From positions 1 to 55,481 of IMG/VR virus record IMGVR_UViG_3300050014_000090: 55,481 bases of DNA. One strand, 5' to 3'. The notes below the pieces were generated by a model. That model was not told the origin of the DNA and did not search any database. It worked only from the letters and a program-made list of their open reading frames with translations. The translations under genes and the position numbers were made by a program. The DNA is from a virus. This document shows positions 1-55,481 of the stretch, in pieces (the first letter of the stretch is position 1; every line of letters starts with the position of its first letter).

Positions 1-177
1 GCCCCTGTTGATTGAGATGCCGTCACTGCCTAGATTGAAAAGGCCATACAATGGATACGGTGCGCCGTTGGCGTTGGTCGCATTCCACAGGAGCCGACTC
101 GCCGTTCCATTGTACGCTGAGTATCCGACCTGATTCGTGATAGTCTTTGAATCCTGTGCAAATGTGAAGATGATTGT
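1..177. repeat. Terminal direct repeat, left copy (repeats 55305-55481)
   Basis: Positions 1-177 match 55305-55481 base for base except at position 50 (A) versus 55354 (C). A gene reads through the joint without interruption, so this is either overlap from assembling a circular molecule or real terminal redundancy. The mismatch changes a codon of the fibre gene (Trp in the right copy, Leu in the left), which suggests population variation or a sequencing error. Confidence 0.95.
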
Positions 178-6808: not shown

Positions 6809-6946
6809 TCATTCCATCTCTTTGAATCCGCTGCATGGATCATGACTAAACAAACATAGGTGTTTATCGCACGTCACTAGGATCTTGCATACTGTGTAGC
6901 CATCAAACGTGATGCTTTCACAGTTTAAACATTCTGTATCTGTCAT
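6809..6946 (-). CDS. Cys-rich miniprotein, 45 aa
   Basis: The protein (MTDTECLNCESITFDGYTVC then KILVTCDKHLCLF and a final DPCSGF) has seven cysteines. It fits the CxxC...C...C-x-x-F pattern found in several tiny proteins of this genome. Its ATG overlaps the stop of the upstream Cys-rich gene by ATGA, so both are cotranslated. Zinc or Fe-S binding is inferred from cysteine spacing. No catalytic motif is visible. Confidence 0.7.
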   Translation of the reverse strand: MTDTECLNCESITFDGYTVCKILVTCDKHLCLFSHDPCSGFKEME

Positions 6947-7122
6947 GCCGTTCCCTTCGTTGTCGGATCACAGAACTCAAAGATCTCGCATGTCTTGCAG
7001 AGATCCTCTTGTTTGCATACGTCACAACATTCGCGTCCTTCCAAACAGAAGATACACGTCATGCCCCCGGCTTTGTAACCGGGATGCAGGACGCACTTTG
7101 TCGTTCGTCGCTTCTTTGGCAT
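6943..7122 (-). CDS. Cys-rich miniprotein with basic N-terminus, 59 aa
   Basis: It begins MPKKRRTTKCVLHPGYKAGG and carries ten cysteines in CxxC-type clusters (CIFCLEGRECCDVCKQEDLC, then KTCEIFEFC). The basic N-terminus suggests nucleic-acid contact; the cysteines suggest two metal sites. The ATG has GGAGG eight bases upstream. It is the first gene of the capsid transcript after the intergenic region, just before the 45-aa Cys-rich gene and the portal. A transcription- or translation-regulating role is possible but unproven. Confidence 0.75.
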   Translation of the reverse strand: MPKKRRTTKCVLHPGYKAGGMTCIFCLEGRECCDVCKQEDLCKTCEIFEFCDPTTKGTA

Positions 7123-7491: not shown

Positions 7492-7677
7492 TTATCTTCT
7501 TGCCTTAAAGACCTTGTGAATCTCTTGCAGTAAGTCGTCGATTGCCAACACGACCAATAAGATCGTGAAGATAATCAGGCCGACAATTACCTGATCCGGC
7601 CTTGACTTCGCTGCTCGAATATTGTGACCCTCGCATTCACACGTTCCCTCAAGTTCGCACAGCGCACAGTTGCTCAT
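7492..7677 (-). CDS. Cys-rich N-terminus plus one membrane helix, 61 aa
   Basis: The chosen ATG at 7677 overlaps the peptidase stop (ATGA). Residues 1-17 (MSNCALCELEGTCECEG) hold five Cys, then a polar link, then a membrane helix (VIVGLIIFTILLVVLAI), and a basic tail (HKVFKARR). It could be a small membrane anchor or holin-like partner of the papain-like peptidase encoded just upstream. The coupling is seen; the lysis role is inference. Confidence 0.65.
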   Translation of the reverse strand: MSNCALCELEGTCECEGHNIRAAKSRPDQVIVGLIIFTILLVVLAIDDLLQEIHKVFKARR

Positions 7678-8597
7678 TTGCTCGTCACGATATTGAGGAT
7701 CTTCTTGAGCTTTTGTTCGCACGCTGTCGGCGCAGGCCCGGGCGTTGGTGTAGGCGTTGGCGGCACAGGCGTCGGAGTCGGATTGATCTCCGTCTCGCCT
7801 GCGATCACTCGAGAGTCACGCACAAGGCCCGCAGTTATGTATTGCTCAGGCAATAACCCGAGGCCGCCTTTGAATTTGCCGAATGCCTTGCCCCATCCTT
7901 CGCCCCAAGAGTTGAGTGTCCACAGATAACCCGGCTGATAACCAAAGAAGGCCATACAATGACCGCCGATCGATTCCTCATTCGCTCCGGGATAGGTTAT
8001 GATCCCATCGCTGCCGACGTTCTCTATCTGTGCATAGACGGGCGTGCCGTACACAACGGGCAATCCTGTCACGGCGAGACAAGTCTTGATGTTGGCTAAT
8101 GTTGCGACGTATCCTTGCGCTGAATCGAGGAGATATGTGTTGTTCGTCTCGTCCTTGACTGCATCGTCGACGACTTTCAAAGGCGGATTGGCATCCATCT
8201 CATTCGTGTCATAAGGCCAATCGGTCTCAGGTGCGACGCCATACTTGACGGTCGCTGTTACTCCATCGGCAATCGTTGATCCGTTATCGCCGGGGAAGTC
8301 TCCGCCAACGATCCTCGCCATTCGATACTCATAGTTGCGGCATCCCAAGACGGCCGAGCCTGATTGCTTCATCTGCAATCCCTCGAATGCCGAGGTGACG
8401 CCGTGAGCAACGCAAGATCCTTCGCTGCCTTGATCTTTGACTGTGCTGACAAGATTGGTGATGTCGCACGTTGTCGGCAATACTGCGGGCGGCGTTACGA
8501 ATCGCTCGTATCGCAACCTTCGCGGATCGGGAAGTTCCCGATGCCATCCCATACCATAGTTCTTTTTTGGTGTTCTTATTCTACTAACATTTACCAT
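7674..8597 (-). CDS. Papain-like (C1A) cysteine peptidase, 307 aa
   Basis: The catalytic set is complete: Gln and Cys in VKDQGSEGSCVAHG (about residues 53-62), His in GGHCMAFFGY, and Asn in WTLNSWGEGWG. The opening GWHRELPDPRRLRYERF is typical of archaeal and viral C1 peptidases. There is no signal peptide or long propeptide. A Pro/Thr tail (about residues 270-290) leads to a short Lys-rich end. It is translationally coupled to a small membrane protein and has GGAGG before its ATG. Likely roles are cleavage of the host S-layer or envelope protein at lysis or entry, or virion maturation. The substrate cannot be read from sequence. Confidence 0.9.
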   Translation of the reverse strand: MVNVSRIRTPKKNYGMGWHRELPDPRRLRYERFVTPPAVLPTTCDITNLVSTVKDQGSEGSCVAHGVTSAFEGLQMKQSGSAVLGCRNYEYRMARIVGGDFPGDNGSTIADGVTATVKYGVAPETDWPYDTNEMDANPPLKVVDDAVKDETNNTYLLDSAQGYVATLANIKTCLAVTGLPVVYGTPVYAQIENVGSDGIITYPGANEESIGGHCMAFFGYQPGYLWTLNSWGEGWGKAFGKFKGGLGLLPEQYITAGLVRDSRVIAGETEINPTPTPVPPTPTPTPGPAPTACEQKLKKILNIVTSK

Positions 8598-8599
8598 CG

Positions 8600-8830
8600 T
8601 TAAACCTCCACGATCTTCGTCGTGTAGGATTCACATCCCTTGCCGAGGATGTAGTTCTCGACGCCGACTGCACAACTCCCGGGCCGCACGACGTCGGCCG
8701 GAATTTCAAGCGTTGGTTTGCACAGTCCGCAATGTTCACAGGTCTTGCACGGCAAGTTGTTCTTTACGTAATCGATCGACGCATCCATAAAGAACCCGCG
8801 TTCGTCGTGAGGCAGTCGTATTGCTGTCAT
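8600..8830 (-). CDS. Cys-rich protein, 76 aa
   Basis: I chose ATG 8830 (MTAIRLPHDERGFF) with GGGAGAGTGA upstream that overlaps the histone stop; a longer start adds a low-complexity stretch. The core LPCKTCEHCGLCKP is followed by a Cys in PGSCAVG and one in GCESY, giving six cysteines: one zinc-ribbon knot or an Fe-S site. It is the C...C-x-x-Y variant of the small Cys-rich family in this genome. It is encoded between the histone-fold gene and the peptidase. Confidence 0.7.
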   Translation of the reverse strand: MTAIRLPHDERGFFMDASIDYVKNNLPCKTCEHCGLCKPTLEIPADVVRPGSCAVGVENYILGKGCESYTTKIVEV

Positions 8831-8832
8831 AT

Positions 8833-9018
8833 TCACTCTCCCATATCCTGCACCTCTATTCGAACCCGCTTGTCCGCTTGCATTCGTTGAACTGCCTTGA
8901 CCGCTGCTTGATTCATGAACGTGGTGATCCACGCCTCGAAGTCCGTCAGCGCCGCGTTGCTTACTTGCTTCGCTCCTGCGGCTATTAATGCATCGTGTAG
9001 TTGTTGCTTACTGATCAT
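8833..9018 (-). CDS. Archaeal-type histone-fold protein, 61 aa
   Basis: Residues from GAKQVSNAALTDFEAWITTF onward align without gaps over 45 positions with the archaeal histone core (my recollection of HMfB: GAERVSDDARITLAKILEEM and so on). Conserved are the GA-x-x-VS turn into helix 2, the alternating Ala face, and R...D seven residues apart in RVRIEVQD, matching the Arg-Asp salt bridge of loop 2/helix 3. The length fits a single tail-less histone fold. DNA-contact positions differ: Gln replaces the loop-1 Arg, and V-R replace the K-T of loop 2. GGAGGTGA precedes the ATG. It may compact viral DNA or modulate host chromatin. Confidence 0.75.
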   Translation of the reverse strand: MISKQQLHDALIAAGAKQVSNAALTDFEAWITTFMNQAAVKAVQRMQADKRVRIEVQDMGE

Positions 9019-10717: not shown

Positions 10718-11218
10718 CTAAGAATACCTCGCAAGTTCTCCCCTGACTTTTATTCCACATCTTTCTAACCACAAATTCCACGCTTCGAGTCCTGTAATGC
10801 CCTCTCTTTTGGGTCGCCTCCACAAATTTTTGTACCTATAAACTCGCAGGATTGTATCGGCAAACTCAACGGGTGGTAAATCTTGAGGTTCTTGCGGTTG
10901 TGTGTGTGTCGTAAGCATCCAAATTGTTGGTTTTTTTGTTGTGAGATCATCAGTCACGGTCTCAAATGATTTTCTCTGCCCCCAGTTTTTACCGAATATG
11001 GATTTCGCTATATCGAACCCCCTCAATTCTTTAGAAATTTCTTCGTCGTAAAATTTCGTCTCTCCGAACCAGTAATATTTGTCATGGATCTCTGCAAATG
11101 CATCTATATCAGTGGGTGATATTTTTCCCATACCATTTTTCCCGGGGCATTCGAGCCCTTTAAATAGCACTATTTGTCGATATGGTTGCCTGTATTTATT
11201 GAAACCTAGTTTCTTCAT
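10718..11218 (-). CDS. Putative PD-(D/E)XK nuclease beside the adenine methylase, 166 aa
   Basis: ISPTDIDAFAEIHDKYYWFG followed by ETKF gives a D...ExK arrangement typical of PD-(D/E)XK nucleases: Asp in the first strand, Glu-Thr-Lys in the second. The remainder has a YRYKNLWRRPKREG segment and a helical C-terminus (LEAWNLWLERCG). GGGGAG precedes ATG 11218. The gene is visibly richer in A/T than its neighbours, which suggests separate origin. Lying directly after a DNA adenine methyltransferase gene, it could be the restriction partner. Endonuclease activity is inference. Confidence 0.5.
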   Translation of the reverse strand: MKKLGFNKYRQPYRQIVLFKGLECPGKNGMGKISPTDIDAFAEIHDKYYWFGETKFYDEEISKELRGFDIAKSIFGKNWGQRKSFETVTDDLTTKKPTIWMLTTHTQPQEPQDLPPVEFADTILRVYRYKNLWRRPKREGITGLEAWNLWLERCGIKVRGELARYS

Positions 11219-11285
11219 AAACTCCCCTGAGCAGTTCGCTATTCCAAATGTTGCGGGGACTAATGTATCCGCAAACCTTGTTACT

Positions 11286-12293
11286 TTACTCTTCTTTATC
11301 GTTGAACCACATCTCTTCTCGTTGTTCTACTGCGGCCATTTCGTCTCCCCAAGATGTCCACCCCGGGCGTTTGCCGCGAGCAAAGAGTTCTATCTTTCGT
11401 GCTTCGGGATACATATCTTCAATGATTCGATAGACAACACCGGGTTTACGACTGTGCCTTGCCGATTTCTCCCGAATAACTGAGCGAGGTAGTGACGCAT
11501 CGGGAGGAGACGCCATCTTGCCCTTTCGCCCGATCAATAGATATTCGTGCTGTATGCGAACGATGTGTCCAAGTCCCATGCGTTCTTTGTCCCATACCAT
11601 GCTTGTTCGATAGGTGAATCCCCAAGCATTCAAGACCGAAAGTCCTTCCTCCAATTTCGGCGACGTGACCCATAGGAATAGCATCGCATTCTCGGCCGAC
11701 GGAACGTCCATTGCTTTGATGTCCTCAAGTTCCATCGTTGGATATTGATGTTCGATCTGCCGTTCCGGGGTTGTCGTCCCTACGTCGTACTTCCACGGCG
11801 GATCGGCATATATTATGTCATATTCACCTTCAATGCTTGGGAGTGATTCGGGTTCTGTGCGATTGATATCACGGACTGCTTCGCGCAGTTCTTTGACTGA
11901 CCAATCATTCGCTTCCGCTTCATCCAATAGTTTGTCCCCATCCTCATCGGGGTGGACTCCTTGAACTGCTTGATGATGGCTCCACGAAAGATTTTCCCGA
12001 CGTCGGGAAAATTGAAACCTCCCTGCCATCGTCTTTTCATTTGCTACGGATTGATAATCATATCCCGTGTTTTTGATTGCTTCTTTGTACTTGTCCCCAT
12101 AACGCAGCTCGCCATAGTTGAGCCAATCTCCAATAAGCCATTGAATTGCTCCTTCAACTTGTCGTATCTTAGAACCAAAATCACCCCATTCCACAACGGT
12201 CGGATTGCCTGTCACGACAAGACCCACGCGCGTCGGAACAAACATGGCATCCGCCATTAAAGCCAGTTCGTTTTTGTCGACCATTTCAATCAT
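11286..12293 (-). CDS. MT-A70 family DNA N6-adenine methyltransferase, 335 aa
   Basis: The C-terminal half is an MT-A70 domain: YDIIYADPPWKYDV holds the DPPW catalytic motif, with the usual LFLWVTSPKLEEGLSVLNAW strand and the GHIVRIQHEYLLIGRKG and ARHSRKPGVVY motifs. The N-terminal half (WLIGDWLNYGELRYGDKYKE; RRENLSWSHHQAV) is the helical domain often fused to phage and plasmid MT-A70 enzymes. ATG 12293 overlaps the upstream stop. It would methylate adenine in viral or host DNA, either as protection from restriction or as part of a pair with the nuclease downstream. Confidence 0.9.
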   Translation of the reverse strand: MIEMVDKNELALMADAMFVPTRVGLVVTGNPTVVEWGDFGSKIRQVEGAIQWLIGDWLNYGELRYGDKYKEAIKNTGYDYQSVANEKTMAGRFQFSRRRENLSWSHHQAVQGVHPDEDGDKLLDEAEANDWSVKELREAVRDINRTEPESLPSIEGEYDIIYADPPWKYDVGTTTPERQIEHQYPTMELEDIKAMDVPSAENAMLFLWVTSPKLEEGLSVLNAWGFTYRTSMVWDKERMGLGHIVRIQHEYLLIGRKGKMASPPDASLPRSVIREKSARHSRKPGVVYRIIEDMYPEARKIELFARGKRPGWTSWGDEMAAVEQREEMWFNDKEE

Positions 12294-15695: not shown

Positions 15696-16187
15696 CTACC
15701 TTAGATCTGAGAGACATTTCTCAAGATTAAGCAAACCATTGGCGTCTTTTTTGAGTTGCGGATATTTGCCGGGTAAGTCCTTCGGATCAATAGCAACCTC
15801 GCCCTCGAGGAATGCGCCGCATACGTGACTCCATGGGAGCAGATAAAACTCGTTCTGCTTCGGGCCTCGTCCCTGCTTAATCTCAGCGGCGAGGATTCCA
15901 AACCGGCCAGTGTCCTCAATGAATTCGGTGATTGTGGTGATTTGGTGCTTGCCTTTGCTGCGCTTCCAAGAGCTAAAATAGAACTTTGATGTCTTGGTCG
16001 GATTGATAGATTTGACTTCTATCGCGAGATAATGATCAGGATTCCTCGAGTCGACAAGGACGTCAATGTATTGAGTATAAAACCGTGACTGCTTCAAGCG
16101 ATACGCGAGGCCCGGCTGCTCCGTGGCTGATAAGTATTCATTGATCAATTTGACAATGCGATTCTCGCTCGGAGATGTGCCTGACAT
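15696..16187 (-). CDS. Hjc-like PD-(D/E)XK resolvase/nuclease, 163 aa
   Basis: Motifs follow the archaeal Holliday-junction-resolvase-like pattern: Glu in SENRIVKLINEYL, RLKQSRFYTQYIDVLVDS with the metal-binding Asp, and YLAIEVKSIN giving the ExK. Then come HQITTITEFIEDTGRFGILA and an LLPWSHVCGAFLEGE strand, as in small haloarchaeal and methanogen PDDEXK proteins. It probably resolves branched viral DNA before packaging. It lies just after the minor head and zinc-ribbon genes and just before the lipoprotein cassette promoter. No ribosome site is obvious at ATG 16187. Confidence 0.75.
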   Translation of the reverse strand: MSGTSPSENRIVKLINEYLSATEQPGLAYRLKQSRFYTQYIDVLVDSRNPDHYLAIEVKSINPTKTSKFYFSSWKRSKGKHQITTITEFIEDTGRFGILAAEIKQGRGPKQNEFYLLPWSHVCGAFLEGEVAIDPKDLPGKYPQLKKDANGLLNLEKCLSDLR

Positions 16188-16456: not shown

Positions 16457-16650
16457 CAAATCTCATCCTCTTTGATCTCGCCGTCCCGAATCCTGCGGCC
16501 TAACTCTTGCAGGCATTTGTCGCAATAGAATCTACCTCGGTATAGGTGAATTCCATCCATCGCTTTATCTCTGACGCCCTTGCACTCCTTTAAAGGCGTG
16601 TTGCATTCCTCACAGCCTCGTTTATCGAATTCTCCTCTTGGTTCTATCAT
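16456..16650 (-). CDS. Zinc-ribbon protein (LIM/DksA-like knuckles), 64 aa
   Basis: The first knuckle is GCEECNTPLKEC and the second FYCDKCLQELG, separated by about 24 residues with GIHLYRGRFY before the second. This is a classic treble-clef/zinc-ribbon arrangement. GGAGGCGACCGA precedes the ATG, which overlaps the minor head stop (ATGA). A nucleic-acid or protein-binding adaptor is likely. Confidence 0.7.
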   Translation of the reverse strand: MIEPRGEFDKRGCEECNTPLKECKGVRDKAMDGIHLYRGRFYCDKCLQELGRRIRDGEIKEDEI

Positions 16651-17486
16651 TCGGTCGCCTCCTCAGTTTCTTCTCCTGATGCCGCTTCGCACAAGATGGT
16701 GCAAGCGCAGTTGATGATATTCCAATCACTGCCTGACGGATCGCCCGGATGGTCTAAGTCTTCGCCTCCGACGTCAAACGTGTCGTCCATGGGTACAGAT
16801 TGACCGTCCGCGTCGGCGTGTGCTTCTCTCACGTTGTCGAGTCCCGTTGTGCTCCACGTCTTGTTTAAATCGGGAACTGTTGCTTTCATGGTTTGTAAAG
16901 AGGCCGCGTTCATCGCCGAATTCGCTTCCGTCCGCGAGATTGTTTGACCTCTACCATCCCATGAATCTCCGAGCATCGAATCGACCGCTTGACCTATCTC
17001 AAAGTGTGAGTCACCGTTCTTGATGCCGTCGGCGATTATGGAGCGTATGCTGTCTTGTGTTGTGTCATCGATGCCGACTATCTTGTCTTTGAATGCGCTG
17101 CCTTGAATCAGGTTGTTGACGGTTTGCTCCCAATCGGGAACAATGTCTTCAACGTCCTCAACGTCTTGTTTGGTGATCGGTTTGCTGACGTCTTTACCCG
17201 TTAGGAACGCATGGATATACCCAATAGTAGCCCGTCCCGTCTCTACCCATAGACTTTTAAGTGCAAGCTTCCAACCAAGGCCTGCTTGGTGAGTATAATA
17301 AGATTTGATGTGTTCTATGGCGGTCTCAGGAGAGCTAGTTGCCCGGAAGATAGAACGGATTGCCTTGCGATCCTTCTCCCATACTGGCGTAAGTCGTGCC
17401 ATGCCGAATTTGTCCCATTCCTGACGGTGAGCATCCATCATTCGGGCGAATTCGTGCCGCTTCTTGTCCTTCTTTGACTCAGCCAT
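16647..17486 (-). CDS. Minor head protein, phage Mu F / SPP1 gp7-like, 279 aa
   Basis: The C-terminal half carries the Mu F signature: TISRTEANSAMNAASLQTMK, then KTWSTTGLDNVREAHADADG, a DDTFDVGGEDLDHPGDPSG loop and NIINCACTI. The N-terminus is helical and basic. These proteins join the portal at the unique vertex and are usually encoded next to the portal. Here the gene lies with the terminase nuclease gene about 10 kb from the portal, so the head module is broken up by the small-gene operon. Confidence 0.85.
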   Translation of the reverse strand: MAESKKDKKRHEFARMMDAHRQEWDKFGMARLTPVWEKDRKAIRSIFRATSSPETAIEHIKSYYTHQAGLGWKLALKSLWVETGRATIGYIHAFLTGKDVSKPITKQDVEDVEDIVPDWEQTVNNLIQGSAFKDKIVGIDDTTQDSIRSIIADGIKNGDSHFEIGQAVDSMLGDSWDGRGQTISRTEANSAMNAASLQTMKATVPDLNKTWSTTGLDNVREAHADADGQSVPMDDTFDVGGEDLDHPGDPSGSDWNIINCACTILCEAASGEETEEATE

Positions 17487-17619
17487 GGAGAATCCTCTCT
17501 ATCAATTGGTTGCGGAACTTGCCGCAACAGCCATAATCGTCAAGCATCAATCCCGCCTTGCAGGTCAAACCATTGAAAAAACCACAATAGCGGCAATCGT
17601 GTTTATTTGGTTGTTTCAT
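17479..17619 (-). CDS. Cys-rich miniprotein, 46 aa
   Basis: The gene encodes MKQPNKHDCRYCGFFNGLTC, then KAGLMLDDYGCCGKF and a helical tail. The CxxC-x7-C-x9-CC-x-x-F layout matches the dispersed small Cys-rich family of this genome. It overlaps the start of the minor head gene and directly follows a hydrophobic peptide frame. Zinc binding is inferred. Confidence 0.7.
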   Translation of the reverse strand: MKQPNKHDCRYCGFFNGLTCKAGLMLDDYGCCGKFRNQLIERILHG

Positions 17620-17828: not shown

Positions 17829-18587
17829 TCACCAAAACAACGGCACAGCGCCGCCTCCTGAGTCTTCCGCGACCCACGCCGCGATTCCTATCGCTGACAC
17901 AGTATCATCGTGAATTCCGGTCTTCATTGCGCCAAACTGGTCATAACCTGCGTCGGTTATCTTCCGTTCGTAATTGTTCAGTTCCTCTCTCAGTTCCTCC
18001 AATTGACCTTTCATCTTCGCATCCGCCCATAAGCGATGTGTCTCAAAGAGTGAGATCAACGTCGACGCCATTTGCGGCTTTGGCAAGTTGACACTCCTCG
18101 GGTCGTTCCACTTTGGCCGGATTCCTCCGGTGAGTGTGACACGATAGAGTTCCGCATTCGGGATCAACTCGACGACCGTGTCCGTTACTGCCGCGCCAAC
18201 GCCGCCCTCATCAACGACGACATAGACATAGTCAAAGTCAGGACTCTCAATCAGTTGAGTCCACGTCTTGCGGAGCAAGCGGGAGACCTTCGGATATGGC
18301 GTCTCGAGCGGGAGTCGCCTAATTCGGGAGACGTGATAGACGAACCGATCCTCCTGTTCCTCGTCGAGTTCGATCGGGAGGAACGGCTCGAGGAAGATGA
18401 TCGAGGTATAGTCGGCCTTTTTTCCAAGGTCAACGCCCACGTAGACCGTGCGATTGTAATTGCCGTATTCGGTCGTGCGGAACTTCTCGGACTTCTCACG
18501 CTGCTCGCTTTTCTTTGTCTCGCTGAGTGCTTCCATCCTGCGGCGGTTGCGTGCTGCGAATTGTGAGTTGACCCACGAATCGCTCAC
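17829..18587 (-). CDS. Terminase large subunit, separate nuclease domain, 252 aa
   Basis: This gene encodes only the C-terminal RNase H-like nuclease of TerL: VYVGVDLGKKADYTSI (first metal Asp), YVVVDEGGVGAAVTDTV (second), and GIHDDTVSAIGIAAW (third, HDD). A helical N-terminal segment (RNRRRMEALSETKKSEQREK) stands where the linker to the ATPase would be. The GTG start at 18587 has GGAGG upstream and overlaps the stop of a tiny membrane gene. The ATPase half is encoded at 19825-20640, with five small genes between. The two products probably assemble into one motor that cuts the concatemer. Confidence 0.9.
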   Translation of the reverse strand: MSDSWVNSQFAARNRRRMEALSETKKSEQREKSEKFRTTEYGNYNRTVYVGVDLGKKADYTSIIFLEPFLPIELDEEQEDRFVYHVSRIRRLPLETPYPKVSRLLRKTWTQLIESPDFDYVYVVVDEGGVGAAVTDTVVELIPNAELYRVTLTGGIRPKWNDPRSVNLPKPQMASTLISLFETHRLWADAKMKGQLEELREELNNYERKITDAGYDQFGAMKTGIHDDTVSAIGIAAWVAEDSGGGAVPLFW

Positions 18588-18685
18588 TTAAACCGCCTCC
18601 GTTCATCCAACCATAGCACAAACACACAATACGCAATAGCAACAACGATCGCAAGGGCGAGAAATAATGCTTCTGAATCAGTCAT
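18584..18685 (-). CDS. Tiny single-pass membrane protein, 33 aa
   Basis: MTDSEALFLALAIVVAIAYC, then VFVLWLDERRRFK: one membrane helix and a basic end. Its stop overlaps the GTG of the terminase nuclease gene (GTGA), and its ATG overlaps the previous stop. It is one of the genes inserted between the two terminase halves. Confidence 0.65.
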   Translation of the reverse strand: MTDSEALFLALAIVVAIAYCVFVLWLDERRRFK

Positions 18686-18828
18686 CTCGCAGGCCTCCAT
18701 CCGGGACAGTCCTTGATTCCTTGCTCCTGCATCTCGCGGATCTCACAGTTGAAATACCGATGGCACGTAAATGATCCGGCTTCCATCTTGAGCGATAGAT
18801 TCGCACAGGTGAAACATTCAAAACTCAT
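18682..18828 (-). CDS. Cys-rich miniprotein, 48 aa
   Basis: MSFECFTCANLSLKMEAGSF, then TCHRYFNCEIREM, and DCPGWRPAR at the end. The pattern CxxC...C...C...C-P-x-W is the clearest form of the small Cys-rich family. ATG 18828 overlaps the stop of the neighbouring family member (ATGA), so the two are a coupled pair inside the terminase split. Confidence 0.75.
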   Translation of the reverse strand: MSFECFTCANLSLKMEAGSFTCHRYFNCEIREMQEQGIKDCPGWRPAR

Positions 18829-19016
18829 GATGCACTCGGTTTGTATGCGACCCACGATAAGCATGTGAACGCGAGACTTTGTGGTGTGCTGCCGTCAACG
18901 TCGCAATAGTAACAATCGACGTCTCGCTTGAGATTGTCGCAGGTGACGCAGATATGCACGTTCTCGACGGTCATGATCACGTCGTCACTCGGGGAGTTTT
19001 GCGTTGAGTTTACCAT
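18825..19016 (-). CDS. Cys-rich miniprotein, 63 aa
   Basis: After a polar N-terminus the core is ENVHICVTCDNLKRDVDCYY, then CDVDGSTPQSLAFTCLSW. The CxxC...C-x-x-C...C-x-x-W layout matches its neighbour at 18682, and the pair probably arose by duplication. ATG 19016 has GGAGG eight bases upstream. A second ATG at codon 15 is possible. Confidence 0.7.
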   Translation of the reverse strand: MVNSTQNSPSDDVIMTVENVHICVTCDNLKRDVDCYYCDVDGSTPQSLAFTCLSWVAYKPSAS

Positions 19017-19030
19017 TCAAGACGCCTCCG

Positions 19031-19609
19031 TTAATCGCTCGCCCATTCAACATCAACATAGCCGTTCCACTGAGCCAAAAGAGTATGACCGTAATAATCA
19101 ACGTCGAAGTCATCCATCGTGACGCTGCCATTCGGCTCGAGATAATAAACGACCCATTCGGTCGTATTGGCAAGAGGAAAAACCGCCGAGACCGCGACGA
19201 GCGTTGTGTTCTTGTCGTGGCTTTTGAACTTTATGCGTGTCCTGCCATCATTCGAGATCTCAGTTCGTTGAAAGTCTGACCATTGACCAAACTTTGCCAG
19301 TGTCTTCTCGGCCACAGTTTGCGGCGTCGTTGGATAGTCCACGAAGCGCTTTGGAACCCGGGCCTGTGGCTCAGGATCAGGACGATGCTCCCATGGTTGT
19401 GTATAATCGTCTTCGCACCGAGACTTTTGGTCAACGATGTGATATGCCCGCGCTCTCTCGGCCCGCTCTTGCCAATCGTCTTTTCCACTGATCTCGCCCT
19501 TCATATAGGCGCAATAGATGTCGCAGGGAACGCGGCCTTCCAACACAGCCGCCGCTGCTTTTGGTTTTTGCCTTTTAAGATTGGCAAGCCCGCCCGAGCA
19601 ACCACTCAT
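19031..19609 (-). CDS. Hypothetical protein, 192 aa
   Basis: The N-terminus has Cys at SGCSGG and in PCDIYCAYMKGEISGKDDWQ; the rest is soluble with a predicted beta-rich C-terminus (KFKSHDKNTTLVAVSAVFPL; TEWVVYYLEPNGSVTMDDFD). GGAGGCGA precedes the ATG, which overlaps the RHH gene's stop. It is the largest gene in the insert that separates TerL-ATPase from TerL-nuclease. No known family is recognised. Confidence 0.65.
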   Translation of the reverse strand: MSGCSGGLANLKRQKPKAAAAVLEGRVPCDIYCAYMKGEISGKDDWQERAERARAYHIVDQKSRCEDDYTQPWEHRPDPEPQARVPKRFVDYPTTPQTVAEKTLAKFGQWSDFQRTEISNDGRTRIKFKSHDKNTTLVAVSAVFPLANTTEWVVYYLEPNGSVTMDDFDVDYYGHTLLAQWNGYVDVEWASD

Positions 19610-19809
19610 GCCTTCGCCTCCACGCCCAAAAACTCGCGGAGCATATACTCCACGGCCACGGACTTCGGAATCATCTCGTTAAACGCCTTCCGTTCGACGT
19701 GATATGCAATCTCGGGCGGGAGCCACATATTGATTTGTAAACTGCCTTCCCGTTTCATCTTCTTGCGATACGTTTGCCGGTGATCGTGCGCCGCTTGTCC
19801 TCCCATCAT
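19606..19809 (-). CDS. RHH-like small protein inside the terminase split, 67 aa
   Basis: A basic N-terminus (AAHDHRQTYRKKMKREG) leads to SLQINMWLPPEIAYHVERKA and KSVAVEYMLREFLG, which read as strand, helix, helix. GGAGGTCAC precedes the two adjacent ATG codons (19809 and 19806). It may regulate the packaging genes or bind DNA as an accessory of the terminase. Confidence 0.6.
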   Translation of the reverse strand: MMGGQAAHDHRQTYRKKMKREGSLQINMWLPPEIAYHVERKAFNEMIPKSVAVEYMLREFLGVEAKA

Positions 19810-19824
19810 TTGTGACCTCCTCTC

Positions 19825-20640
19825 TCATTCTAGATCCATATTTATCTCGTCCCTTGTGTATAGCTCAGGATGATTGAACGCTGCCTCGATGTCCTCGGCC
19901 CGGAATACACTGTCTATGGCCTCTGCGAAAAAACAATAATATTCCTGTTTGAATTCCCAATCGAGCATCCGCGCCTTTTCCTCCATGATGAACGCCTTTT
20001 TAAATCGCGGACACTGGTCGGCGTTGATCTCTATCTTGAGCCATTCCGTCTCATTCTCCCACGCCTGCCAAAAAAAGCCTCGCTTGCCGTGCGGCGTGGA
20101 GAGTAGGACGATCTTGCCGTCGCTTATGTTGAGCATTGGTCGGGCGTTTGTGTATGCCTTCTCATGCACCTGCGCCGCTTCATCGATGATAAGCAGTGTG
20201 ACGTCGGAATAGCCTCGAATGCTATCCGGTGCTTGTCCTGTGAGTGCAATGATTCGTGACTTGTTTTGCAGCTCGAGCCGGTGAACGCTCTCGGTTATTG
20301 AGAGGACGGGACGGCCGATCTGCTTATAGTAGTCGGTGATCTTGCGAAAAGACTCTTTAGCCTGCTCGAGCGTGTGCGAGATTACGATCACCATAGCTCC
20401 GGGTGTGTAGAGTGCATGGTGAAGCGCCATCACTGCGACGATCGAGGACTTGCCGGTTTGCCGGGCGCAGTTAAGGAGGATGCGCTTTGAGTCCGACTCA
20501 AGAACCTCGTATTGCCACTCATCGGGATCGAGACCGAGTGCTTCCGCAAACAGTCCCGGATACTTCTCGAGTGCGAGATAGTCCGAGATCTGCGGGTGCT
20601 CAGTTTTGGCTCGTACTTGCCTCGTTATCGCCATTTGCAT
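19825..20640 (-). CDS. Terminase large subunit, separate ATPase domain, 271 aa
   Basis: The complete packaging ATPase is here: ILLNCARQTGKSSIVAVMAL is the Walker A strand, VTLLIIDEAAQVHEKAY Walker B, and KIVLLSTPHGKRGFFWQAW motif III. It ends with EFKQEYYCFFAEAIDSVF and the start of the interdomain linker, then stops, with no nuclease domain. It overlaps the TerS gene by about 40 bases. The nuclease domain is a separate gene 1.2 kb downstream. ATG 20640 or the one two codons later could be the start. Confidence 0.92.
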   Translation of the reverse strand: MQMAITRQVRAKTEHPQISDYLALEKYPGLFAEALGLDPDEWQYEVLESDSKRILLNCARQTGKSSIVAVMALHHALYTPGAMVIVISHTLEQAKESFRKITDYYKQIGRPVLSITESVHRLELQNKSRIIALTGQAPDSIRGYSDVTLLIIDEAAQVHEKAYTNARPMLNISDGKIVLLSTPHGKRGFFWQAWENETEWLKIEINADQCPRFKKAFIMEEKARMLDWEFKQEYYCFFAEAIDSVFRAEDIEAAFNHPELYTRDEINMDLE

Positions 20641-21130
20641 GCTGATACTTCATCATTGCCCTGACAATATTCTTTTGCGTCTTGAGGTCTTGCCCGGCGG
20701 CCGCTTTGATCACCTCGAATAGCTTGTCGACTTCCTCTTTAACGGTGATCTGCATTGGCTCCAAGTGAACGCGACCGAGCGACTGATTCATCTCGAGCGC
20801 CTTAAACTTCATATTGCCAAGTTGCGAGAGCGCCGCGACGCGATCTTTGGCCGGTGTTATTGGATCAAGAGCGATCTCCCATAGATGTCGCTCGACTTCC
20901 TCGAGTCCGTTGAGGTAGTCCTGCACGACAAAGTCGTCGTTTATCTCGGGGATCACAAAGTCTCCCCACGTATGTCGTTTTCTCCAATCCGACCACATTG
21001 CTTGATCGGTGACGCCATACTTGCCCGCCATCTCGCGGATTATAACATTGTGCGGTTCACCGTGGAGATGTCTCGTATACATTTCTATGCGTCGGTTTAG
21101 CAACCTCTTTTGAGGCCCCACTTGTCCCAT
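20600..21130 (-). CDS. Terminase small subunit-like protein, 176 aa
   Basis: The N-terminus holds a helix-turn-helix (REMAGKYGVTDQAMWSDWRK) used for recognising packaging sites. The middle is helical (LEEVERHLWEIALDPITPAK; DRVAALSQLGNMKFKALEM) and the C-terminus carries an oligomerisation/TerL-contact helix. Its place directly upstream of and overlapping the TerL ATPase gene supports the call. Confidence 0.8.
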   Translation of the reverse strand: MGQVGPQKRLLNRRIEMYTRHLHGEPHNVIIREMAGKYGVTDQAMWSDWRKRHTWGDFVIPEINDDFVVQDYLNGLEEVERHLWEIALDPITPAKDRVAALSQLGNMKFKALEMNQSLGRVHLEPMQITVKEEVDKLFEVIKAAAGQDLKTQKNIVRAMMKYQHANGDNEASTSQN

Positions 21131-23844: not shown

Positions 23845-23991
23845 TCACCTCACCTCAAATTTATTACAGGTATCTGTTCCAAGATGGTTTGCTCTGTCCT
23901 TTTTACACCAAAGATACGGTGCTGACGGATTGCGACTATGCTTGCAGTTTGAGCACACTTCTTTGACCTTTACCATGGGTTTTTTTCTCAT
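23845..23991 (-). CDS. Cys-rich miniprotein, 48 aa
   Basis: The product begins MRKKPMVKVKEVCSNCKHSR; further on it has APYLWCKKDRANHL and TCNKFEVR. CxxC...C...C-x-x-F with a basic N-terminus fits the dispersed family. Its ATG directly abuts the stop of the RHH gene. The arrangement looks like a one-zinc nucleic-acid-binding knuckle. Confidence 0.7.
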   Translation of the reverse strand: MRKKPMVKVKEVCSNCKHSRNPSAPYLWCKKDRANHLGTDTCNKFEVR

Positions 23992-53310: not shown

Positions 53311-55481
53311 TCAGTAACGACCTCCAATTCAAGATCGATCTCGTCAGTCACCACGGCGACAAGGTCGATCGTATCGGTGAGTGTCGACGTGACATCGAGT
53401 TCCTCGTCAAGCGTTACCGTGTAATAATCAATCTCTTGGAACGCGATCTTGGCATACGGATCAATCGCTGCGATCTCCATCGCCGGAACGACGTCCGTTG
53501 TCACGGTCTCAGATTCCTCAATACCTGTATAGTTCTGCGTCTCGATAATGCAGTCTCCGACGACCTCAGTGGTGACTTGTGTGCTGAGTTGACTGACGAT
53601 CAGCGGTCGCGCCCTGAGTTCGCTGCCTGTCGCAACGGCCGGGAAGCAGAACTCCCACATGTGCTCAACGTCGGGATAGACAATGACCGTCGCAATCTCC
53701 ATTCCAACGACTGTCGTCGTAATCGTATAACCGATTTGTATCGTCGGGTTTAGCCCTGCCGTGGCTATCATCGCAGGCACGACCGGCGGATTCGCATAAA
53801 TATACTGTAAGAATGTTGGCGTCGGCACATCCGTCACCATCGCGGGGACGACCGTTGTCGTGACGACGATTATTGCCACGATAGTCACCGTCGGACTTGA
53901 GCAGGCCGCTTGCGTGGTTGTTCCTGCATACGTCGTATAATACGTGAGCGTCCCTGCGAGCGCCGTAACAGAGAACGAATAGTTCCCGTTGCTGTCCGAC
54001 GTAGTTGTCGGCCCCGTTGACAGTGTGACCGTCGCGGAGAACCCTGCGCTTGTCGTCGTGTCTTCGAGCACGCCTGACAAGGTGAAGATGTCCCCGACGT
54101 TTGGCGTTGTTGTCGATGCGATGCAAGTGAGCGATGACGTATCCTGATCTTCCTCGCCGGTGACCATTATCTCATCATCGCAGCCGAGATAGTTCCCGGT
54201 CGCGGTGAAACTCACGTCGTAATAGGTATCGCCTGCGACTGCTGACTGGATGATGAAGGAATAAACGCCATTCGAATCGGTCGTCGCCGTGTCAACGTAT
54301 GATCCGTTGGCCGATAAGTCGATCGACTTGCCTGTGAGTTTGCTGCTGCCGGATGTTAGCGTGCCATAAATATTGAACGACGCCCCGACCGTCGGATTGG
54401 TCGTACTCGCATATTCAGTGATCGCCGTTGAGACTGCCTGTCCTACTGCGTGCCAAACGGAGCCGGAACTGTCGCATGAATGATGCCCTGAGTCACCTTC
54501 AAATGCAACATACTCCCATTCGCCCGGCGCGGCCTCGCCGGTTTGTGTGTAAGAATAATTGCCGTTGCTGTCGGTCGTGCAATAACCATACGCGACGTGC
54601 CCTGTCGCAAAGCCATCATTTGACCACCAAACGTCGATCGACTTGCCTGCGAGTTTAACGCCGCCAGTTGTTTGAAGCGTTCCGGTCACTGTGTAGTTCT
54701 GTCCGATATTCGGCGTCGTCGTGCTCGGCGTGCAAGAGATCGTTGTCGCAACGGCAGGATTCCAACGGGCGGAGTCCGTTGACCAATCCGAATACGTCGC
54801 CCAATTCGGAGCCTCATTATAAAACTCGCGGTATATGATCACGCCCATGTTGCAGTTGTAGTTAGAACATCCTGAGCTGCAATTTGCGATAACGGAATTC
54901 GCCCCGGTCGCATCGTTATACCACGATGTATCAGAACTTGTATGCGTCACCGTGACGTTTGTTTTAGTCGGAGCGACCGGAGTACCTTTGTTCGGTGTCT
55001 GCCCGACGTAGATACTCACGTTATTGGCAGCGACCGATCGTGGATTTGCCGGGATGTTGACGGCTACTTGAACATATAGCGTCGTGCCTGGCGAGACTGT
55101 CCGGTCCGATGTCCACATAACATAGTTTCCCGACGTCGCAGATGCACGCATAAAACTGATCTGGTTGTTTTGGATCTGAATCGAAAAGCCACCCCACGCC
55201 TTGTCGAAGATCTTGGAGATTGAGCCGTTGACACCCATCCCCTGATACCAAAAACCGATCTCCCACGCATGCAGGAACGCGCCAGTTCCTGCGTCGGTGT
55301 AGGTGCCCCTGTTGATTGAGATGCCGTCACTGCCTAGATTGAAAAGGCCATACCATGGATACGGTGCGCCGTTGGCGTTGGTCGCATTCCACAGGAGCCG
55401 ACTCGCCGTTCCATTGTACGCTGAGTATCCGACCTGATTCGTGATAGTCTTTGAATCCTGTGCAAATGTGAAGATGATTGT
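53307..55481 (-). CDS. Large adhesin with LamG-like and Ig-like domains (C-terminal 666 codons)
   Basis: With the first 62 codons at 1-186 the protein is 727 aa. After a concanavalin-like N-terminal part (SDGISINRG; GFWYQGMGVNGSIS; KAWGGFSIQIQNNQISFMRA), three Ig-like domains follow. They share a VTISCTPSTTTPNIGQNYTV-type opening and a TDSNGNYSYT strand, e.g. TVGASFNIYGTLTSGSSKLT and PNVGDIFTLSGVLEDTTTSA. The C-terminus is a Val/Thr-rich, acidic stretch ending LELEVVTE. This is probably a cell-surface binding fibre. Confidence 0.75.
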   Translation of the reverse strand, partial: TIIFTFAQDSKTITNQVGYSAYNGTASRLLWNATNANGAPYPWYGLFNLGSDGISINRGTYTDAGTGAFLHAWEIGFWYQGMGVNGSISKIFDKAWGGFSIQIQNNQISFMRASATSGNYVMWTSDRTVSPGTTLYVQVAVNIPANPRSVAANNVSIYVGQTPNKGTPVAPTKTNVTVTHTSSDTSWYNDATGANSVIANCSSGCSNYNCNMGVIIYREFYNEAPNWATYSDWSTDSARWNPAVATTISCTPSTTTPNIGQNYTVTGTLQTTGGVKLAGKSIDVWWSNDGFATGHVAYGYCTTDSNGNYSYTQTGEAAPGEWEYVAFEGDSGHHSCDSSGSVWHAVGQAVSTAITEYASTTNPTVGASFNIYGTLTSGSSKLTGKSIDLSANGSYVDTATTDSNGVYSFIIQSAVAGDTYYDVSFTATGNYLGCDDEIMVTGEEDQDTSSLTCIASTTTPNVGDIFTLSGVLEDTTTSAGFSATVTLSTGPTTTSDSNGNYSFSVTALAGTLTYYTTYAGTTTQAACSSPTVTIVAIIVVTTTVVPAMVTDVPTPTFLQYIYANPPVVPAMIATAGLNPTIQIGYTITTTVVGMEIATVIVYPDVEHMWEFCFPAVATGSELRARPLIVSQLSTQVTTEVVGDCIIETQNYTGIEESETVTTDVVPAMEIAAIDPYAKIAFQEIDYYTVTLDEELDVTSTLTDTIDLVAVVTDEIDLELEVVTE
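55305..55481. repeat. Terminal direct repeat, right copy (repeats 1-177)
   Basis: This copy matches positions 1-177 except for C at 55354 versus A at 50. The codon there is Trp (TGG) in this copy and Leu (TTG) in the left copy. Confidence 0.95.

Follow-up and report, generated by a model that had tools for sequence, protein, structure and literature searches.

We consider it very likely that the virus of IMG/VR record IMGVR_UViG_3300050014_000090 has a two-gene large terminase (TerL), in which the split between ATPase and nuclease is ancestral and the five small genes now found between the halves are later cargo. In TerL, an ATPase ring moves the DNA and an RNase H-like domain cuts it. Here, both halves are intact, conserved and selected in separate open reading frames (ORFs), the split is older than the insert, and the cargo is variable or absent among related loci.

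The window (the whole stretch of DNA analysed, 55,481 nt, which is the entire record) carries 177-nt direct repeats at its two ends, 99% identical to each other, and the viral genome is therefore complete, at about 55.3 kb. It is that of a tailed virus, with portal, protease, major head protein, MuF, tape measure and Gp37-like tail genes, and the TerL genes adjoin a probable TerS gene and tailed-virus head genes, the context expected of a Caudoviricetes TerL. The nearest cellular matches are the peat 'Euryarchaeota' MAGs fen_53 (73%) and bog_38 (67%), the second of which encodes McrA, and these matches to peat archaeal MAGs point to a methanogen as the likely host. Elsewhere in the window lie a papain-family cysteine protease (7674-8597; Pfam Peptidase_C1, 6e-9), with a similar-looking protein at 11086-11709 of the related contig L016, and an MT-A70 family DNA methyltransferase (11286-12293; 8e-27). 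The protein at 15696-16187 has by eye, and without Pfam support, the look of an archaeal Holliday-junction resolvase, with a 59-65% identical counterpart in L016 and in three further relatives, L005-L007. The features considered below are:

1..177, no strand: direct terminal repeat, copy 1 (99% identity to 55305-55481)
16647..17486, minus strand: Mu gpF-like minor head protein, downstream neighbour of TerL (Pfam Phage_Mu_F, 5e-12; same order in relatives)
17829..18587, minus strand: TerL nuclease half (TerL-C), 252 aa, GTG start (PHROG, profile, AlphaFold2, Foldseek)
18584..18700, minus strand: inserted ORF 5, single-span membrane peptide, 38 aa from the first ATG and 33 from the second; its stop overlaps the nuclease start (GTGA)
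18682..18864, minus strand: inserted ORF 4, Cys miniprotein (CxxC..C..C small ORF)
18825..19016, minus strand: inserted ORF 3, Cys miniprotein (CxxC..C..C small ORF)
19031..19609, minus strand: inserted ORF 2, 192 aa, no Pfam or PHROG match
19606..19809, minus strand: inserted ORF 1, small protein, RHH-like by a weak profile match; GGAGG at 19820-19816
19825..20640, minus strand: TerL ATPase half (TerL-N), 271 aa (Pfam, PHROG and PDB profiles)
20600..21130, minus strand: probable TerS, 176 aa, directly upstream of TerL and overlapping the start of the ATPase gene
55305..55481, no strand: direct terminal repeat, copy 2, pairing with copy 1

TerL-N matches Pfam Terminase_6N (1.8e-13), the 239-aa ATPase-only profile PHROG 7579, annotated 'terminase large subunit' (1e-53), and the PDB profiles of 4zni (3e-10) and T4 gp17 (1e-8). 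Its P-loop (ARQTGKSS), Walker B (IIDEA) and STP motif are intact, as in other TerL ATPases, and it ends in an acidic tail, DEINMDLE. The probable TerS has a weak DNA-binding match in PHROG (E 0.038), and its positional counterparts in L005-L007 and L016 are 40-44% identical to it.

TerL-C alone has no significant Pfam family, and in PHROG it falls into a 233-aa family of 'unknown function', PHROG 27743 (6e-24). A profile of 32 TerL-C sequences matches the solved TerL nucleases of Thermus phages (5tge, 5m1q and 5m1f; about 1e-19), and Pfam Terminase_6C is matched by 21 of the 32 aligned members. The AlphaFold2 model from this alignment reaches a pLDDT of 88.7 (an earlier model from 3 sequences, at 41.7, was unusable), and each of its best 12 fold matches in the PDB is either a terminase nuclease domain or an entire large terminase, with Foldseek matches to 5m1o (8e-7), UL15, HCMV, Sf6 and SPP1. 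The predicted layout is an N-terminal helix (residues 3-37) and then an RNase H-like fold whose acidic catalytic residues are Asp53 and Asp126, invariant in the alignment, and Asp227/228, nearly so. Motifs, profile and fold confirm that 17829-18587 is the nuclease half of a TerL. A single-protein search of IMG/VR with the nuclease half gave no match, nor did a 3-row nuclease alignment against the genome collection, whereas other three-sequence alignments (A1, A3 and A4) did find matches in the viral and genome collections.

The two ORFs lie 1.24 kb apart, with the nuclease gene downstream, preceded by its own GGAGG (18600-18596) and overlapping the preceding ORF at a GTGA, and in the window, as in relatives, TerL is not a single polypeptide. 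A sequence-only reading of this DNA had already assigned the ATPase motifs and the nuclease Asp motifs to two genes with separate starts, and had placed the break between the domains; all of this is borne out, both break points falling outside the two folded domains. A profile scan of the complete genome recovered neither a second TerL ATPase nor a second TerL nuclease, and no full-length TerL beside the two halves. The same reading had described the insert as an RHH protein, a 192-aa protein, two Cys-rich miniproteins and a 33-aa membrane peptide. The five ORFs and both Cys miniproteins stand, the RHH assignment is weak (phrog_11804, E 0.003, with no Pfam match), and the peptide has 38 or 33 aa depending on the ATG. 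No counterpart of inserted ORF 1 was found near the TerL of relatives, five relative contigs, of which some are partial, lack the 192-aa protein, and inserted ORF 4 shares 36% identity over 44 aa with the lone Cys-protein between the halves of L016. The window has 7 small CxxC..C..C ORFs, where block shuffles gave 0-3. They are scattered (6809-6946, 6943-7122, 8600-8932, 17479-17619, 18682-18864, 18825-19016 and 23845-23991), and such miniproteins occur in relatives too.

Comparison with related loci indicates that the split predates the insert. In L005, L006 and L007, from three metagenomes (the close relatives are without exception contigs of metagenomes or MAGs), the ATPase is 77% and the nuclease 61-62% identical to that of the window, and the junction consists of the TAA ending the ATPase ORF, 12 nt, and a nuclease ORF with its own ATG after a purine-rich site. 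The halves of L016, 62% (ATPase) and 65% (nuclease) identical, are separated by one 54-aa Cys-protein, at least three Cys-proteins precede the nuclease in L058, and a methyltransferase-like ORF, read by eye, lies between the halves in L031. Across loci the junction is thus empty, or is occupied by one, three or more, or five small genes, or by a single larger one, Cys-miniproteins being the only shared kind. Because the split occupies the same point in relatives that have no insert, it was not produced by the five-gene insert, and because the five inserted genes are not conserved between loci, a motor role for their products is disfavoured and stands unsupported. Comparison of gene order has in this way upheld one part of the earlier proposal, the split, which the relatives named above share, and refuted another, that the insert produced it, and it makes improbable that the inserted proteins belong to the motor.

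The arrangement extends well beyond these contigs. Of 238 genomes surveyed in the class to which a Methanothrix MAG belongs, 23 contained PHROG 27743; split TerL genes with neighbouring halves were found at 23 loci in 18 genomes, and fused ones, of 407 aa, at 2 loci. The ATPase ORF of the split loci measures 247-287 aa, once 347, two loci being cut by a contig end, and no gene separates the halves in 22 of these 23 provirus loci. In one methanogen provirus (L136), a 402-aa ORF that is radical-SAM-like by its Cys motif and has no Pfam match lies between the TerL halves. Two more split loci have adjacent ORFs (L020, L088 in an alphaproteobacterial RefSeq genome). L046 was rejected as an interdomain split, its frameshift lying inside the ATPase. 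Since many related viruses share the split, it is old and real, and very likely ancestral in this archaeal-virus group.

In a tree of the ATPase domain, one clade (support 100/95) unites 29 rows that are split, 8 that are fused and 3 that lack a nuclease, and needs 4 changes between the split and fused states, the direction of which hangs on the rooting on fused outgroups, with some inner branches weak. Given that root, the simplest history would start from a single old split, with about three re-fusions afterwards, in the Thermus/Meiothermus phages, in L029 and in the group L063m/L152/L154-L156. The nucleases of the last two groups match other PHROGs (5653/10250; 5573/38), as expected if a detached ATPase can swap partners. 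Widened to take in a second, distant group, the tree requires 7 changes, and splits therefore probably arose more than once overall. Both halves are under purifying selection, with a dN of 0.013 and a dS of 0.11 between the nucleases of L005 and L007, and a dN of 0.185 and a dS of 1.49 between the ATPases of the window and L005; these are simple NG86 estimates, saturated at the larger distances.

Several loci depart from the common arrangement. A second clade, which was kept apart (L065, L068, L071, L073 and L077), has its nuclease ORF in the +1 frame relative to the ATPase ORF that it overlaps, with poor starts or none before motif I, and programmed frameshifting or recoding is possible there. 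On the 7.8-kb viral contig L063, two distinct TerLs, a split one and a fused one, face opposite ways. The detached nuclease gene at 2243-3481 of L150 (4913-6151 of L174) has 413 aa, and beyond the first match of its profile a further nuclease-like stretch, degenerate in appearance, is matched as well. L017, L018 and L170 (G249:C20) hold a TerS and ATPase-half pair, and neither a capsid gene nor a nuclease was recognised in its neighbourhood. The ATPases of L017 and L018 are 67-73% identical to that of the window, and the neighbours read by eye include a DNA methylase and a helicase (L018) and a schlafen-like protein (L170). These pairs recall the enigmatic TerS-TerL element NitKor-E1 (PMC6563490). 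A stand-alone TerL-type nuclease gene (a 252-aa frame) occurs in 4 of 7 genomes of one small archaeal class (L171, L172, L173 and L178); that of L172 (5199-5924) has ordinary chromosomal genes around it and no ATPase nearby.

Other explanations can be weighed against these observations. It is very improbable that the insert broke a continuous TerL and that its proteins now form motor parts: the five ORFs do sit exactly at the interdomain point, tied to the halves by ribosome sites and overlaps, but L005-L007 refute the insert as the cause, and the inserted genes vary from locus to locus, the 192-aa protein among them. Phage TerL genes are a known target of group I introns, for example in some Bastillevirinae (PMC11878797), and the insert might by analogy be a spliced intron or an intein, so that full-length TerL would be restored as RNA or protein. 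This is highly unlikely, given that the window has no Rfam match at the gathering threshold (hence no group I or II intron RNA recognised in the insert), that the inserted ORFs tested match no homing endonuclease family in Pfam or PHROG, that the insert-free L005-L007 have no continuous TerL frame, their ATPase half ending in a stop and their nuclease half having its own start, and that the halves of other members differ in reading frame and overlap by 4 nt in the ATGA manner. Stop readthrough, conceivable in L005-L007, where the halves are in frame, was rejected, the halves elsewhere being out of frame or kilobases apart.

That the split reflects faulty sequencing or assembly, or a gene in decay, is extremely unlikely. 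Frameshifts do occur as a risk in metagenome contigs, and the excluded distant locus L046 looks like one, but the same split with an identical junction recurs in three metagenomes, whose independent assemblies do the work of a check by reads, and the split again in L016; it is repeated at the 23 loci in 18 genomes, one of them deep in a large contig (G052:C1, near 490 kb), and dN is well below dS with every catalytic residue kept. We also regard as unlikely, if less remote, that the split is real but the detached nuclease was recruited to another role, in recombination or as a resolvase-like enzyme, and that another enzyme cuts the concatemer. The RuvC fold is common to terminase nucleases, the TerS-ATPase pairs of L017, L018 and L170 lack a nearby nuclease, and the stand-alone nuclease of L172 lies in ordinary chromosomal surroundings, all of which would suit such a recruitment; against it, the nuclease gene directly follows the ATPase gene in nearly all viral and proviral loci, and the best PDB sequence matches of the nuclease are large-terminase nucleases and its best fold matches terminases.

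In the two-gene motor that we favour, TerL-N, as its own protein, would form the DNA-pumping ring on the portal, as in other TerL, and TerL-C, as a second protein, would cut the DNA concatemer both when packaging begins and when it ends, meeting the ATPase ring without a peptide link. The five small genes would be later arrivals at a cargo-tolerant junction, and would not be needed by the split motor. We infer that both halves continue to serve packaging, and their assembly in trans, as suggested earlier, is plausible. The halves might dock through their conserved new ends, the ATPase tail EID(L/M)xL(D/E) and the nuclease start W(M/F)P(G/S)D with its helix. Tails in split members read DEINMDLE, NEIDLSLDDL, DIDMSLDDL, WEIDLELE and EIELDLD, nuclease starts of the form (S/A/G)W(M/F)P(G/S)D are found in L005, L016, L058 and L063 (the window keeps only the Trp), and these end tails are common to distant split members, L063 included. 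Against universal docking ends, many provirus members have a short N-terminal extension on the nuclease, or none. L017, L018 and L170 keep the ATPase tail too, and because no nuclease lies near it there, it may serve another partner.

When the domains of T4 TerL are separated, their activities are kept and translocation is lost completely (PMC9958956), which weighs against a working two-protein motor. The isolated ATPase domain of D6E forms pentamers, and its kcat is some 60-fold that of the full-length enzyme (PMC5727402). Tentatively, and with slightly less than even confidence, we propose that the present lineage packages with an ATPase ring lacking a covalent nuclease, that a T4-type hinge or tether would not be needed for translocation, and that the loose link allowed the nuclease partner to change. 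A lineage that does without the link would offer a natural test of the T4 rule, that is, of whether a tethered nuclease domain is required for force or the ATPase ring is enough.

TerL is regarded as a fused ATPase-nuclease, and a jumbo-phage survey has called the attached TerL nuclease universal (PMC7824862). The open-access literature yielded no description of such a two-gene TerL, which is weak evidence of absence, and EFLK1, considered as a precedent, showed nothing in its first 50 kb. Among 50,697 phage records, none matched the detached nuclease of the window or that of a methanogen provirus member at the thresholds used. Since half-length 'terminase large subunit' families exist in PHROG, pieces of split TerLs may already have been catalogued without comment. 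The window halves fall into two separate PHROG families, 7579 and 27743, the latter bearing no terminase annotation and no statement there of its pairing with the former. The present analysis offers a function for PHROG 27743, and surveys that count the ATPase half alone as 'TerL' overlook its partner.

Compared with known systems, the two genes encode the same two domains and catalytic motifs, in the same place after TerS, as the one-chain T4-type (Terminase_6) enzymes T4 gp17, G20c/P74-26, D6E and Sf6 gp2. Those are single polypeptides, with a hinge that is essential in T4 (PMC9958956), whereas the window has two genes. The TerL of Bastillevirinae interrupted by introns is likewise in pieces, but these are rejoined by group I splicing (PMC11878797), while the window has no intron and separate starts. 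The nearest cultured relatives of the ATPase are those of the Thermus phage Riverbug and the Meiothermus phages MMP7 and MMP17, at 37-39% identity (46-47% to a methanogen provirus member), and the Riverbug nuclease is of a type related to that of the window. Their TerLs are fused, at 415-417 aa, and lie by the tree inside the split clade, so that these phages have perhaps re-fused what their archaeal-virus relatives keep as two genes.
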